A stretch of 64,000 nt of DNA from Streptomyces rapamycinicus NRRL 5491 (lineage in GTDB: Bacteria > Actinomycetota > Actinomycetes > Streptomycetales > Streptomycetaceae): the NCBI RefSeq assembly GCF_024298965.1, contig NZ_CP085193.1:1798001-1862000 (forward strand), given 5' to 3'. The notes below the pieces were generated by a model. That model was not told the origin of the DNA. It saw nothing but the letters and a program-made list of their open reading frames with translations, and searched no databases. The position numbers were made by a program, and so were the translations under genes. Below, in pieces: positions 25,053 to 39,961 of this stretch. Each line of letters opens with the position of its first letter. Positions within the stretch are counted from its first letter, which is position 1.

Positions 25053-27446
25053 TCAGCCGGTCCAGGACCATTCGGCGACCTCGGGCATATCGGTGCCGTG
25101 CTCGCGGATCCAGGCCTGGTGGCGGCTGCGGGCGTCCTGCATCCGCTGCCGTACGGCCGTGGCGCGCACCGCGAGCCCGGGGGTCCGGTCGATGACGTCC
25201 ATCACCAGCCGGTAGCGGTCCAGGTCGTTGCGGACCACCATGTCGAACGGCGTGGTGGTGGTGCCCATCTCCAGGTAGCCGCGCACATGGAGGTTGGGGT
25301 GGACGGCCCGGCGGTAGGACAGCCGGTGCACCAGCCACGGATAGCCGTGGTACGCGAAGATGACCGGCCGGTCGCGGGTGAACAGGGCGTCGAACTCGTG
25401 GTCCGTCATCCCGTGCGGATGCTCCTCCTTCGGCAGCAGCCGGGTCATGTCGACGACATTGACCACCCGCACGGCCACATCGGGCAGATGGCGGCGGAGG
25501 ATCCCGGCGGCCGCGATGACCTCCTGGGTGGGCACGTCGCCCGCGGCGGCCAGCACCACGTCCGGCTCCCCCGCGCCGTTCTCGGTACCGGCCCAGTCCC
25601 AGGTCCCGGCGCCGCGGGCACAGTGGGCGCGCGCCTGGTCGAGATCGAGCCAGTCGAAGCAGGGCTGTTTGCCCGCGACGACCACATTCACGTAGTCGCG
25701 GCTGCGCAGGACGTGGTCGGCCACGCTGAGCAGGGTGTTGGTGTCCGGCGGCAGATAGACGCGCACCACCTCCGGGCTCTTGTTGAGCACATGGTCGACG
25801 AAGCCGGGGTCCTGGTGCGAGAAGCCGTTGTGGTCCTGGCGCCACACATGGGAGGTCAGCAGGTAGTTGAGGGAGGCCACCGGGCGCCGCCAGGGCAGTG
25901 AGCGGGACACCTTCAGCCATTTGATGTGCTGGTTGACCATGGAGTCCACGATGTGCACGAACGCCTCGTAGCAGGAGAAGAGGCCGTGCCGCCCGGTCAG
26001 CAGATAGCCCTCCAGCCAGCCCTGGCAGAGGTGCTCGGAGAGGATCTCCATGACCCGGCCGTTGCGGCTGAGGTGCTCGTCGGTGGGCACGATGGACTCC
26101 TGCCACGCCTTGCCGGTGGCGCGGTAGAGGGCCTCCAGCCGGTTGGAGGCGGTCTCGTCGGGGCCGACCACCCTGAAGTCGCGGCGGTCGGCGGTGTCCT
26201 CCATGACCTTCTCCAGCAGCCCGCCGAGGACCCGGGTCGGCTCGTGCAGGGTCGCGCCGGGCTTGTCCACGGGGACCGCGTACCGCTCCAGGTCGGGCAC
26301 GGGCAGCGAGCGCAGCAGCAGTCCGCCGTTGGCGTGCGGATTGGCGCCCAGGCGGCGGTCGCCCTCCGGGACCTCGGCCAGGAGGTCCGCCCGGGGCCGC
26401 CCGTCGGCGTCGAAGAGCTCCTCGGGGCGGTACGAACGCAGCCAGCGCTCCAGCTGCCGCAGATGCTCCGGGTTCTCCCGGACGCCCGGCAGGGGGACCT
26501 GGTGGGCGCGCCAGGTGCCCTCCACCGGGAGCCCGTCGACCTCCTCGGGACCGGTCCAGCCCTTGGGCGTGCGGAGCACGATGACGGGCCAGCGGGGCCG
26601 CTCGGTGATGCCCTCCTCGCGGGCGGTGCGCTGGAGCAGGGCGATCCGGTCCAGCGCCTCGTCCAGGGCGTGCGCCATGGACCGGTGCACCTGAAGCGGT
26701 TCGTCCCCGGCGACGTGGATCGGCTCGTGACCGTACCCCCGCAGCAGGTCGTCGAGTTCGGGCTCCGGGAGCCGGGCGAGCACCGTGGGGTTGGCGATCT
26801 TGTATCCGTTGAGGTGGAGGATCGGCAGCACGGCGCCGTCGTGGACCGGGTCCAGGAACTTGTTGGCGTGCCAGGAGCCGGCCAGCGGGCCGGTCTCGGC
26901 CTCGCCGTCGCCGATGACGCAGGCGACCAGCAGCCCGGGGTTGTCCAGCGCGGCCCCGTAGGCGTGGGCGAGCGAGTAGCCGAGCTCACCGCCCTCGTGG
27001 ATCGAGCCGGGGGTCTCGGGGGCCACATGGCTGGGCACCCCGCCGGGGAAGGAGAACTGCCGGAAGAGCCGGGCCATGCCCGCCGCGTCCCGGCTGACGT
27101 CCGGGTAGACCTCGGAGTAGCTGCCGTCCAGCCAGGAGCCGGCGAGCACCGCGGGGCCGCCGTGACCGGGGCCCCAGACGCAGATGGCGTCAAGGTCGCG
27201 GTCCTTGATGACGCGGTTGAGATGGGTGTGGACGAGGTTGAGTCCGGGTGAGGTGCCCCAGTGGCCCAGCAGCCGGGGCTTGATGTGGTCCGGGCGCAGC
27301 GGCTCGGTCAGCAGCGGGTTGGCCAGCAGATAGATCTGGCCCGCCGCCAGGTAGTTGGCGGCGCGCCAGTGGGCGTCCAGGGCGCGGATCCGGTCGTCGG
27401 CGAGCCCGCCGCCCGGCGAGCCCGTCGTGGTCGGTGCGTCTGGCAT
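25053..27446 (-). CDS. xfp: Phosphoketolase (xylulose 5-phosphate/fructose 6-phosphate)
   Basis: 797 residues, full length. Thiamine-diphosphate enzyme splitting xylulose 5-P or fructose 6-P with phosphate to acetyl phosphate. Seen: LGHWGTSPGLNLVHTH and GPGHGGPA (N-terminal His motifs), the ThDP/Mg motif GDGEAETGPLAGSW, GYKIANPT, and the C-terminal QDHNGFSHQDPGF and YLPPDTNTLLSV blocks. It lies 93 bp after a universal stress gene on the same strand and probably shares its promoter with the OsdR-like boxes at 28.55 kb. Acetyl phosphate gives ATP without respiration, fitting an oxygen-limitation role. Confidence 0.94.
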   Translation of the reverse strand: MPDAPTTTGSPGGGLADDRIRALDAHWRAANYLAAGQIYLLANPLLTEPLRPDHIKPRLLGHWGTSPGLNLVHTHLNRVIKDRDLDAICVWGPGHGGPAVLAGSWLDGSYSEVYPDVSRDAAGMARLFRQFSFPGGVPSHVAPETPGSIHEGGELGYSLAHAYGAALDNPGLLVACVIGDGEAETGPLAGSWHANKFLDPVHDGAVLPILHLNGYKIANPTVLARLPEPELDDLLRGYGHEPIHVAGDEPLQVHRSMAHALDEALDRIALLQRTAREEGITERPRWPVIVLRTPKGWTGPEEVDGLPVEGTWRAHQVPLPGVRENPEHLRQLERWLRSYRPEELFDADGRPRADLLAEVPEGDRRLGANPHANGGLLLRSLPVPDLERYAVPVDKPGATLHEPTRVLGGLLEKVMEDTADRRDFRVVGPDETASNRLEALYRATGKAWQESIVPTDEHLSRNGRVMEILSEHLCQGWLEGYLLTGRHGLFSCYEAFVHIVDSMVNQHIKWLKVSRSLPWRRPVASLNYLLTSHVWRQDHNGFSHQDPGFVDHVLNKSPEVVRVYLPPDTNTLLSVADHVLRSRDYVNVVVAGKQPCFDWLDLDQARAHCARGAGTWDWAGTENGAGEPDVVLAAAGDVPTQEVIAAAGILRRHLPDVAVRVVNVVDMTRLLPKEEHPHGMTDHEFDALFTRDRPVIFAYHGYPWLVHRLSYRRAVHPNLHVRGYLEMGTTTTPFDMVVRNDLDRYRLVMDVIDRTPGLAVRATAVRQRMQDARSRHQAWIREHGTDMPEVAEWSWTG

Positions 27447-38242: not shown

Positions 38243-39961
38243 CTACCGCTCCGGCAGCGGCACCGCCCACACCAGGCGGGTGCCGCCACCCGGTGGCTCG
38301 CCGAGTTCCAGCTCACCGCCGAGCTTCTCGGCGCGCTCGGCCATGTTCCGCAGCCCGCTGCGCCGGCCGCCCTCGGGGATGCCCACCCCGTCGTCCGTGA
38401 CCGTGAGGGTCAGCCGCCCGGACGCCACGATCAGGGAGATCTCGGCGGCGTCGGCCTCCGCGTGCCGGGCGATGTTCGACAGCGCCTCGGCCAGCACGGC
38501 GACCATGTCGTCCGCGACCGAGCGGGGCACATCGGTGTCGACCAGGCCCTCGGTGCGCAGCGAGGGGGTGAAGCCGAGCGCGGGCACGGCCTCCTCGATG
38601 GTCTTGGCGGTACGGACCCGCAGCCCCTGGACGGCGGGGCCCGCCTCGTGCGAGCGCAGCCCGAAGATCGTCGAGCGGATGATCTTGATGGTGTCGTCCA
38701 GGTCGTCCACCACCCGCAGCAGCCGTTCGGAGCCCTCCGGGTGCTGGACGAACCGCAAGGTGGACTGCAGCGTCATCCCGGCGGCGAAGAGCCGCTGGAT
38801 GGCCAGGTCGTGCAGATCGCGGGCGATCCGGTCGCGGTCCTCGAGCAGGGCGAGCTGCTCGGCGTCGCGCCGCCGCTCGGCCAGTTTCATCGCGATCGCC
38901 GCCTGGCCCGCGAAGCCCAGCAGGGTGTCGGTCTCGAACTGGGTGAAGACGGGGCTGTCCGCCACCCGGGCCAGCGAGAGCACCCCGCCCACCCCGTCCC
39001 TCGTCCGCATCGGCACCGCGACGGCCGGGCCGAGCCCGTCCCAGCGCTGCGGGCCGACCGTGATCCGCGGGTCGTTCTGGACATCGGTGCTGGTGACCGG
39101 CTCGGAGGCGGTGAAGGCCGCGCCGCCGAAGGTGCCCCGGCGGGGCAGCACCAGACCGCGGTGGGCCTCGGCGTCGGTGCCCGCCGCCAGCGCGACCTGA
39201 AGTTCGTCGGTGCCGGCCACCGGCAGCATCAGCACACCGAGGTCGGCGGAGAGGATCCGGCGGGCGTGCTCGACGATCAGCTCCAGGACCCTGGTCTCGT
39301 CCACTCCGGACAGCAGGCTTTGGGTGACCTCGGCGTTCGCCTCCAGCCAGCGCTGGCGGTGCCGGGCCTCCTCGTACAGCCGGGCGTTCTCGATGGCCAC
39401 CCCGGCGGCCACGGCGAGGGTGGACAGCACCGTCTCGTCCTCGCCGTCGAACTCCTTACCGCCGCGCTTCTCGGTGAGGTAGAGGTTGCCGAAGACCTCG
39501 TCGCGCACCCGGATGGGCACTCCGAGGAAGGAGCGCATCGGCGAGTGGTTCGGCGGAAAGCCGTAGGAGGCCGGATGCTCGGAGAGCTCAGCCAGCCGCA
39601 GCGGCTGGGGGTGGCGGATCAGCTCGCCGAGCAGCCCGTGGCCCGACGGCAGCCGCCCGATCGCCTCGGCCCGCTCCTTGCCGATGCCCACCGGGAGGAA
39701 TTCGGCCAGCCGCTGGTCCTCGCCGATGACGCCCAGCGCCCCGTATTCGGCGTCCACCAGTACCACCGCGGCCTCGACGATCCTCCGCAGCACATGCGAC
39801 AGATCCAGCTCACGGCCGACCGAGAGCACCGCTTCCAGCAGGCTGTGCACCCGGTCCTGGGTGCCACGCACCCCGTCGATGCGCACCTGCAGCTCTTCCA
39901 GCAACTCGTCCAGCCGCAGCCGGGGCAGGTACTCCGTACTCCTCGCGCTCTCCATACCCAC
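38243..39961 (-). CDS. osdK: DosS/OsdK-like GAF-GAF histidine kinase, probable haem sensor
   Basis: 572 residues from the GTG at 39961 (ATG at 39955 also possible). Two GAF domains (about 55-205 and 220-370), HisKA_3 with phospho-acceptor His in DRIARDLHDLAIQRLF, and an HATPase_c domain (VTDDGVGIPEGG). In GAF-A the motif FPPNHSPMRSFLGVP has His139, and NLYLTEKR has Tyr161. The 22-residue spacing equals that of the haem-ligand His149 and distal Tyr171 of M. tuberculosis DosS, so haem-based O2, NO or CO sensing is likely. Convergent with the nitroreductase; partner of the regulator at 36371. Confidence 0.9.
   Translation of the reverse strand: MGMESARSTEYLPRLRLDELLEELQVRIDGVRGTQDRVHSLLEAVLSVGRELDLSHVLRRIVEAAVVLVDAEYGALGVIGEDQRLAEFLPVGIGKERAEAIGRLPSGHGLLGELIRHPQPLRLAELSEHPASYGFPPNHSPMRSFLGVPIRVRDEVFGNLYLTEKRGGKEFDGEDETVLSTLAVAAGVAIENARLYEEARHRQRWLEANAEVTQSLLSGVDETRVLELIVEHARRILSADLGVLMLPVAGTDELQVALAAGTDAEAHRGLVLPRRGTFGGAAFTASEPVTSTDVQNDPRITVGPQRWDGLGPAVAVPMRTRDGVGGVLSLARVADSPVFTQFETDTLLGFAGQAAIAMKLAERRRDAEQLALLEDRDRIARDLHDLAIQRLFAAGMTLQSTLRFVQHPEGSERLLRVVDDLDDTIKIIRSTIFGLRSHEAGPAVQGLRVRTAKTIEEAVPALGFTPSLRTEGLVDTDVPRSVADDMVAVLAEALSNIARHAEADAAEISLIVASGRLTLTVTDDGVGIPEGGRRSGLRNMAERAEKLGGELELGEPPGGGTRLVWAVPLPER

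Follow-up and report, generated by a model that had tools for sequence, protein, structure and literature searches.

The stretch of DNA analysed here (the window) comprises 64,000 nucleotides, bases 1,798,001-1,862,000 of the 12.47-Mb single-contig genome of Streptomyces rapamycinicus NRRL 5491. At window positions 25053-39961 (~15 kb) it contains a 14.9-kb island of 13 genes, which a first-pass annotation, made from the sequence alone, had described as a dormancy island of the OsdR/DosR type. Curated models from Pfam and NCBIfam bear out the list of 13 genes, and the member families universal stress protein (USP), Acg-type nitroreductase, Rv1733c and CBS are all present. The type assignment is further supported by the nearest solved relatives of the sensor kinase and the response regulator, DosT/DosS and DevR, by OsdR-like boxes at the promoter regions of the island, and by the recurrence of such boxes upstream of the same families across relatives. 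We therefore read the locus as a Streptomyces OsdR/DosR-type regulon island, with a probability of roughly 0.85.

Genes of the island

25053..27446, minus strand: XFP phosphoketolase, 797 aa (Pfam XFP_N/XFP/XFP_C; NCBIfam PRK05261.1-4, 1422.5 bits; PDB 8io8, phosphoketolase, E=0)
27540..28430, minus strand: USP with two Usp domains (Pfam Usp, two stretches; ATG at 28430)
28670..29272, plus strand: CBS-CBS-BON protein (Pfam CBS twice, BON)
29269..30174, plus strand: USP (Pfam Usp), overlapping the CBS-BON stop
30632..31480, plus strand: USP (Pfam Usp), leading a probable five-gene operon
31523..32590, plus strand: zinc-dependent alcohol dehydrogenase (ADH) family protein (Pfam ADH_N, ADH_zinc_N)
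32587..33441, plus strand: USP (Pfam Usp)
33487..34845, plus strand: nicotinate phosphoribosyltransferase (NAPRT; NCBIfam PRK12484, 602.5 bits, cut-off 330)
34860..35525, plus strand: CBS-CBS-BON protein (Pfam CBS twice, BON)
35635..36189, minus strand: Rv1733c family protein (NCBIfam NF050032, 195 bits, cut-off 80)
36371..37075, plus strand: NarL/DevR/OsdR-like response regulator, 234 aa from ATG (best PDB match DevR, 3c3w, E=2e-77)
37199..38200, plus strand: Acg/Rv3131-family FMN oxidoreductase (nitroreductase; NCBIfam NF047509, 286 bits, cut-off 199)
38243..39961, minus strand: DosS/DosT-like sensor kinase, GAF-GAF-HisKA_3-HATPase (Pfam; best PDB match DosT GAF, 2vzw, E=1e-51)

The phosphoketolase, spanned over its full length by the XFP_N, XFP and XFP_C domains and thus a member of that family, is present as a single copy in the genome (threshold E<=1e-200), and 93 nt separate it from the USP at 27540-28430, which lies upstream on the same strand. 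As judged from spacing, the run USP-ADH-USP-NAPRT-CBS-BON at 30632-35525 is a probable five-gene operon. Within this run, no NCBIfam model among the matches listed reaches its cut-off for the ADH, and the NAPRT is a second copy, the other one found by a search of the same genome lying at 7.28 Mb with 37% identity. The Rv1733c family protein is presumably located in the membrane, and the CBS proteins may, to judge from their family, sense nucleotides, as the first-pass annotation proposed. For the first USP, the Rv1733c gene and the nitroreductase gene, the longest mechanically called open reading frames (ORFs) are overlong at the 5' end, the true starts lying downstream. The window has no match to Rfam at gathering scores.

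Two details of the earlier description need correction. There are indeed four USPs, but they do not all stand in tandem: one runs leftward with the phosphoketolase and three run rightward, the latter interrupted by the ADH gene and by a 457-bp gap. Likewise, the kinase and the regulator do not form an operon, as the two genes are convergent and the nitroreductase gene lies between them. We do not take such an operon as defining the OsdR/DosR family, because the order of a plus-strand regulator followed later by a minus-strand kinase was counted by reading at 38 of 80 named loci around OsdR-like genes, a sample drawn mostly from Streptomyces in which contig ends cut 10 of the loci to less than 20 kb.

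Among PDB matches to the kinase's first GAF domain, DosT (2vzw, E=1e-51) and DosS (2w3d, E=3e-46) rank ahead of any unrelated protein. His139 and Tyr161 are seen to be conserved in the alignment with both structures, and we take them to correspond to the haem-pocket His and Tyr of DosT and DosS; by virtue of these two residues the domain is predicted to be of the haem-GAF type and to bind haem. His384 is the likely phospho-acceptor. In the regulator, whose nearest named relatives are from Streptomyces, Asp67, Lys196, Lys199 and Asn200 align with identical residues of DevR, such that the phospho-Asp is conserved and the K-T-V-K-N stretch of the recognition helix is intact.

OsdR-like boxes at the promoter regions

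In vitro, the S. coelicolor OsdR protein recognises the same 16-bp palindrome (PMC5069765). The window was scanned with a symmetrised weight matrix made from the 26 sites in Table 1 of that paper, two of the 26 being identical. The boxes at promoter regions of the island are as follows.

37105..37120: OsdR-like box with the highest score in the window, 19.4; its 5' edge is at -94 relative to the nitroreductase gene
36273..36288: OsdR-like box, score 16.2, between Rv1733c (minus) and the regulator (plus); 5' edge at -98 of the regulator gene
30459..30474: OsdR-like box, score 14.7; its 5' edge is at -173 relative to the USP-ADH-USP-NAPRT-CBS-BON run
28534-28549 (11.9), 28554-28569 (10.4), 28581-28596 (12.7): three OsdR-like boxes between the divergent USP (minus)/phosphoketolase and CBS-BON (plus)/USP pairs

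The top five matrix sites of the 64 kb, at 37105, 36273, 30459, 28581 and 27863, all fall in the island. Above a score of 12, the island holds five sites and the other 49 kb none, whereas a first-order Markov model of the island predicts 0.30; above 14 there are three against 0.13 expected, and above 10 there are nine, against 1.22 expected and three in the rest of the window. The next-ranked site, 28534 (11.9), is tied with one outside the island at 17524 (11.9), and lower sites follow on both sides. Four of the five best sites, together with 28534 and 28554, make six sites with scores from 10.4 to 19.4 at four promoter regions, and these regions could serve 12 of the 13 genes, all but the kinase gene, if same-strand neighbours are co-transcribed, as their spacing suggests. 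The boxes at 36273 and 37105 fall within the overlong ORF versions of Rv1733c and the nitroreductase, respectively. The palindromes at the promoter regions of member genes are therefore enriched over both the model and the rest of the window, and are predicted to be bound by the regulator.

Several observations weigh against a regulon at this locus. The fifth of the best sites, 27863 (12.6), lies within a USP coding frame, and the matrix scan of the window found no OsdR-like box above 10 upstream of the kinase. Single sites prove little, because the consensus is not in excess genome-wide and because other fetched stretches of the same genome (51 kb) contain one site above 12, at 14.8. Counting the consensus across the whole genome, one mismatch allowed, gave 32 for the forward and 50 for the reversed pattern and was accordingly rejected as evidence. 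So was a one-mismatch IUPAC scan of the window, which gave 7 matches against 5.57 expected, a difference that is not significant on its own; the matrix was needed. The regulon reading is a prediction from sequence.

Given the recurrence of the island families at the 80 loci, their clustering is not due to chance. Within ~10 kb of the OsdR-like genes, a USP is present at 59 loci, a CBS-BON protein at 53, a kinase at 51, a phosphoketolase at 31, an Acg-type protein at 27, an Rv1733c protein at 25, an ADH at 23 and a NAPRT at 3. The boxes, too, are seen to recur: one scoring above 13 lies within 350 bp upstream of 64/86 OsdR-like genes, 17/26 Rv1733c, 14/29 Acg, 10/25 ADH, 48/130 USP, 7/31 phosphoketolase, 17/79 CBS-BON, 10/52 OsdK and 0/2 NAPRT genes (20-nt overlaps were handled by script, and matches with less than 300 bp of upstream DNA were dropped). 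None of 428 coding windows, of which one locus may give several, has a box above 13, and about 1% of them exceed 11. Because coding windows represent intergenic DNA imperfectly, the stronger point is the clustering of positions: the middle half of the boxes before OsdR-like genes lies at -103 to -91.

Phosphoketolase beside OsdR-like regulators

Most of the island is expected from work on S. coelicolor and S. lividans, and the phosphoketolase is its less familiar feature. The OsdRK region of these species (SCO0162-SCO0181, SCO0198-SCO0219) has in common with the island a DevR-like regulator, a DosS/DosT-like kinase, USPs, a Zn-dehydrogenase, a nitroreductase, a NAPRT (SCO0171), CBS-type proteins and the 16-bp palindrome (PMC5069765, PMC6302529). 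However, osdR and osdK form an operon in S. coelicolor (PMC5069765), whereas kinase and regulator are convergent here. In that species the neighbouring genes include nar2 genes and those for pyruvate phosphate dikinase and a putative pyruvate formate-lyase; the present island has a phosphoketolase. In RNA-seq data from S. lividans, obtained with a protein-producing strain and not under controlled hypoxia, the OsdR-correlated genes include USPs, the Zn-dehydrogenase, the NAPRT SCO0171, the nitroreductase, pentose-phosphate isoenzymes and "cystathionine beta-synthase" proteins, here taken as CBS-domain proteins (PMC6302529). The correlation of SCO0171 with OsdR led us to reject the NAPRT as a novelty. 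Neither PMC5069765 nor PMC6302529 mentions phosphoketolase in its main text.

Mycobacterial systems provide a second comparison. The DosR (DevR) regulon of M. tuberculosis shares with the island DevR, DosS/DosT, Acg (Rv2032), Rv1733c, USPs and a NAPRT. It is not known to include a phosphoketolase. Its NAPRT, Rv0573c (pncB2), is tabulated beside DosR-regulon genes in a review (PMC11203133), and its palindrome is similar but not identical (PMC5069765). A neighbourhood of USP, ADH, phosphoketolase and DevR is already in print for Mycobacterium massiliense JCM 15300, in which MMASJCM_2507-2524 comprise USPs, an alcohol dehydrogenase, a phosphoketolase, 'DevR' and adjacent sensor kinases; the authors suggest a part in hypoxic or anaerobic growth or survival and describe the locus as conserved in the massiliense cluster, and the words "DosR" and "dormancy" are absent from the main text (PMC4263727). 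The available parts of PMC2947987 and PMC6456759 contain no link of phosphoketolase to DosR control, and no published statement that an OsdR-type regulator controls phosphoketolase was found in the open-access papers searched. What is new here is that a matrix of published S. coelicolor OsdR sites places the five best sites of the window in the island, where four of them mark four promoter regions.

In 150 Streptomyces genomes, the window's included, an OsdR-like regulator was found in 140 (E<=1e-70) and a phosphoketolase in 127 (E<=1e-200). An OsdR-like gene is found no more than 20 kb from at least 51 of the 148 phosphoketolase copies, which belong to at least 45 of the 127 genomes; by our own calculation, chance would give about one such copy. 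These lower bounds cover all 148 phosphoketolase matches, that of the window's genome among them, and the 150 regulator matches listed. Of the other copies, one is 20-50 kb from a regulator among those listed, 8 are 50-200 kb away and 14 are farther, and 74 share a contig with none of them.

An alternative explanation is that the phosphoketolase, and perhaps the NAPRT, is a passenger in a fluid region of the chromosome and lies outside the control of the regulator, in which case the core island alone would constitute the OsdR regulon. Consistent with this, in 82 of the 127 genomes that have the enzyme none of its genes comes within 20 kb of a regulator among the matches listed, and a quickly built OsdR tree with 74 scored rows requires at least 25 changes between presence and absence of a neighbouring phosphoketolase (7 of the 81 rows, lacking phosphoketolase at loci shorter than 20 kb, were unscored, as was the paralogue from the 10.52-Mb locus described below). 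Yet the distances given above, with at least 51 copies within 20 kb and few in the ranges of 20-50 kb (one) and 50-200 kb (8), argue against a passenger, as do the three orientation classes (19, 7 and 5, counted by reading) into which the 31 named loci with both genes fall. Runs such as USP-ADH-USP-phosphoketolase recur among these genomes.

The upstream DNA of phosphoketolase bears on both views. It was obtained for 100 copies (40 co-located with a regulator, 60 other) out of 134 candidates (49 and 85), after 14 rows had been left out, namely the window's genome, truncated copies and copies of about 51-53% identity. A box above 13 stands directly upstream in 2/40 co-located and 8/60 other copies; a direct phosphoketolase box as a general rule was therefore rejected, and the low scores of most phosphoketolase promoters favour the passenger explanation. 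However, around the 60 distant copies 8 of the 15 sites above 13 are no more than 250 bp ahead of the start, a density of 0.54 per kb compared with at most 0.14 in every other bin, which speaks for control. In the co-located set of 40, most sites are more distant from the start than this. A similar argument against a passenger arises from runs led by another island family, mostly USP, in which the head box exceeds 11 in 10/16 co-located cases (1/5 other) and 13 in 5/16, as compared with the roughly 1% of coding windows above 11. Without such a led run, a box above 11 is present in 4/24 co-located and 10/54 other copies.

Permuted matrices served as a further control and give the phosphoketolase boxes moderate support. 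Above 13, the co-located set has 2/40 against a permuted mean of 0.13 and a maximum of 1; above 11, it has 3/40 against 0.5 and a maximum of 3, and the distant set has 10/59 against a mean of 0.98 and a maximum of 13.

Four findings weigh against placing phosphoketolase metabolism under the regulator. For the distant set above 13, 8/59 compares with a permuted mean of 0.4, but 8 was also the maximum over 60 permutations and was thus reached at least once by a permuted matrix, as the passenger explanation would allow. Two genomes with a phosphoketolase box of 14.6, G020 and G111, have no regulator at E<=1e-48 among the 150 of 178 and 150 of 166 candidates scored. An association across the class was rejected, since of 102 phosphoketolase rows from other genera just 2 (G167 and G253) are within 20 kb of a regulator and one more is at 21.4 kb, again as expected of a passenger, compared with 7 of 20 within the genus in the same survey; this survey covered 20 of 25 same-genus rows (G000, G067, G375, G088 and G418 dropped) and the 102 other-genus rows, the lowest-identity rows being left out, and used the regulator matches listed. 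Finally, the acetate kinase gene (ackA) at 4.21 Mb was rejected as a member of the same regulon, as it has no box, its best score being 3.6. On the whole of this evidence, we consider it unlikely that the phosphoketolase is a passenger.

Proposed oxygen response and related loci

If the island is an OsdR/DosR-type regulon, falling oxygen would free the haem of the haem-GAF kinase (38243-39961), which would then autophosphorylate and pass the phosphoryl group to the DevR-like regulator (36371-37075). In this phosphorylated form, the regulator would bind the 16-bp palindromes at the four promoter regions and activate USP-phosphoketolase, CBS-BON-USP, USP-ADH-USP-NAPRT-CBS-BON, its own gene together with Rv1733c, and the nitroreductase gene. 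Phosphoketolase would split xylulose-5-phosphate or fructose-6-phosphate to give acetyl phosphate with no NADH made, and acetate kinase could convert the acetyl phosphate to ATP. We infer the oxygen signal, the phosphotransfer, the transcription units and the metabolic role, including ATP from acetyl phosphate. Were the scheme correct, an oxygen-independent ATP route of phosphoketolase and acetate kinase would stand under a dormancy switch in a good part of the genus, which might explain how aerobic streptomycetes stay energised without oxygen. The co-location and the box evidence make phosphoketolase control testable in laboratory Streptomyces.

Acetyl phosphate serves as a phosphodonor for OsdR in vitro (PMC5069765), and on this basis a metabolic latch can be imagined, although we regard it as highly speculative and most probably not realised. 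Here the regulator would induce phosphoketolase and the resulting acetyl phosphate would directly phosphorylate the OsdR-type regulator, so that the flow of pentose-phosphate carbon would keep the dormancy programme on after the kinase turns off.

The genome contains a second DevR-like regulator (72% identical) at 10.52 Mb, with the same KTVKN recognition stretch; an adjacent kinase (58%), a USP and a member of the Rv1733c family accompany it, and two boxes there score 19.9 and 14.2. A third DevR-like regulator (63%) lies at 6.02 Mb. These features raise the possibility that the boxes are acted on in vivo mainly by the 10.52-Mb paralogue, or by both regulators jointly, and that oxygen is sensed chiefly by something other than the local kinase. 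The box in the promoter of the local regulator, as before 64/86 OsdR-like genes, points instead to a locally acting protein, though cross-talk would still be compatible with it; a leading part for the paralogue is in our view a serious possibility, but the less probable one. The first-pass annotation had proposed that independence of the 36371 regulator would refute a common programme. This is a weak refutation, as the 10.52-Mb regulator and kinase could mask the loss of the local gene, and a single 36371 knockout may therefore look normal.

In full, the 10.52-Mb set (stretch 10515000-10534999, its positions 8103-13750) encodes an Rv1733c family protein, the kinase, the USP, an anti-sigma-like HATPase_c_2 protein, a cNMP-binding protein and the regulator. 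It lacks phosphoketolase, because the genome's only strong match is in the window. The 19.9 box (stretch positions 14032-14047) is near-perfect and apparently falls where two genes converge, 3' end to 3' end, so that no obvious gene follows it; a small RNA or a short ORF is possible there. A box of 14.6 at 6.16 Mb (positions 7794-7809 of the stretch fetched from there) lies just past the end of a third DosS-like kinase, 41% identical.

Haem GAF kinases of the DosS/DosT family can bind O2, NO and CO, and the system might accordingly respond to nitric oxide or to redox state rather than to oxygen itself. This would fit a perfect-consensus box (20.4) at 12.0 Mb that lies, with a second box (13.8), upstream of a flavohaemoglobin-like gene; in the stretch fetched from there, the two occupy 9778-9793 and 9906-9921. 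On the other hand, Gly77 of the kinase aligns with a Gly in DosT where DosS has Glu87, a residue with a role in access to the haem. The DosT-like residue at this position and the link of the S. coelicolor OsdR regulon to hypoxia (PMC6302529) both favour oxygen, and a nitric oxide or redox signal appears improbable to us, somewhat more so than a passenger phosphoketolase.

The flavohaemoglobin-like gene encodes globin and NAD-binding domains, and matches the NCBIfam model for NO-inducible flavohemoprotein with 354 bits, below the cut-off of 432. Among the three other neighbourhoods with perfect or near-perfect boxes, it makes a sensible target; a dehydrogenase/glycosidase neighbourhood and a transporter neighbourhood, their names read from translations, do not.

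To the right, the island is flanked by a gene for a large GH2 beta-galactosidase-like protein with an NPCBM domain (40049-44755). To the left lie aquaporin-family (MIP) and FAD-linked lactone oxidase-like genes (22513-23541 and 23319-24815). Adjoining the 3' end of the phosphoketolase gene is a MITE-like element of ~220 bp (24815-25034) with perfect 26-bp inverted repeats at its ends, of which the genome contains five further near-full-length copies, 71-86% identical, and many partial ones.

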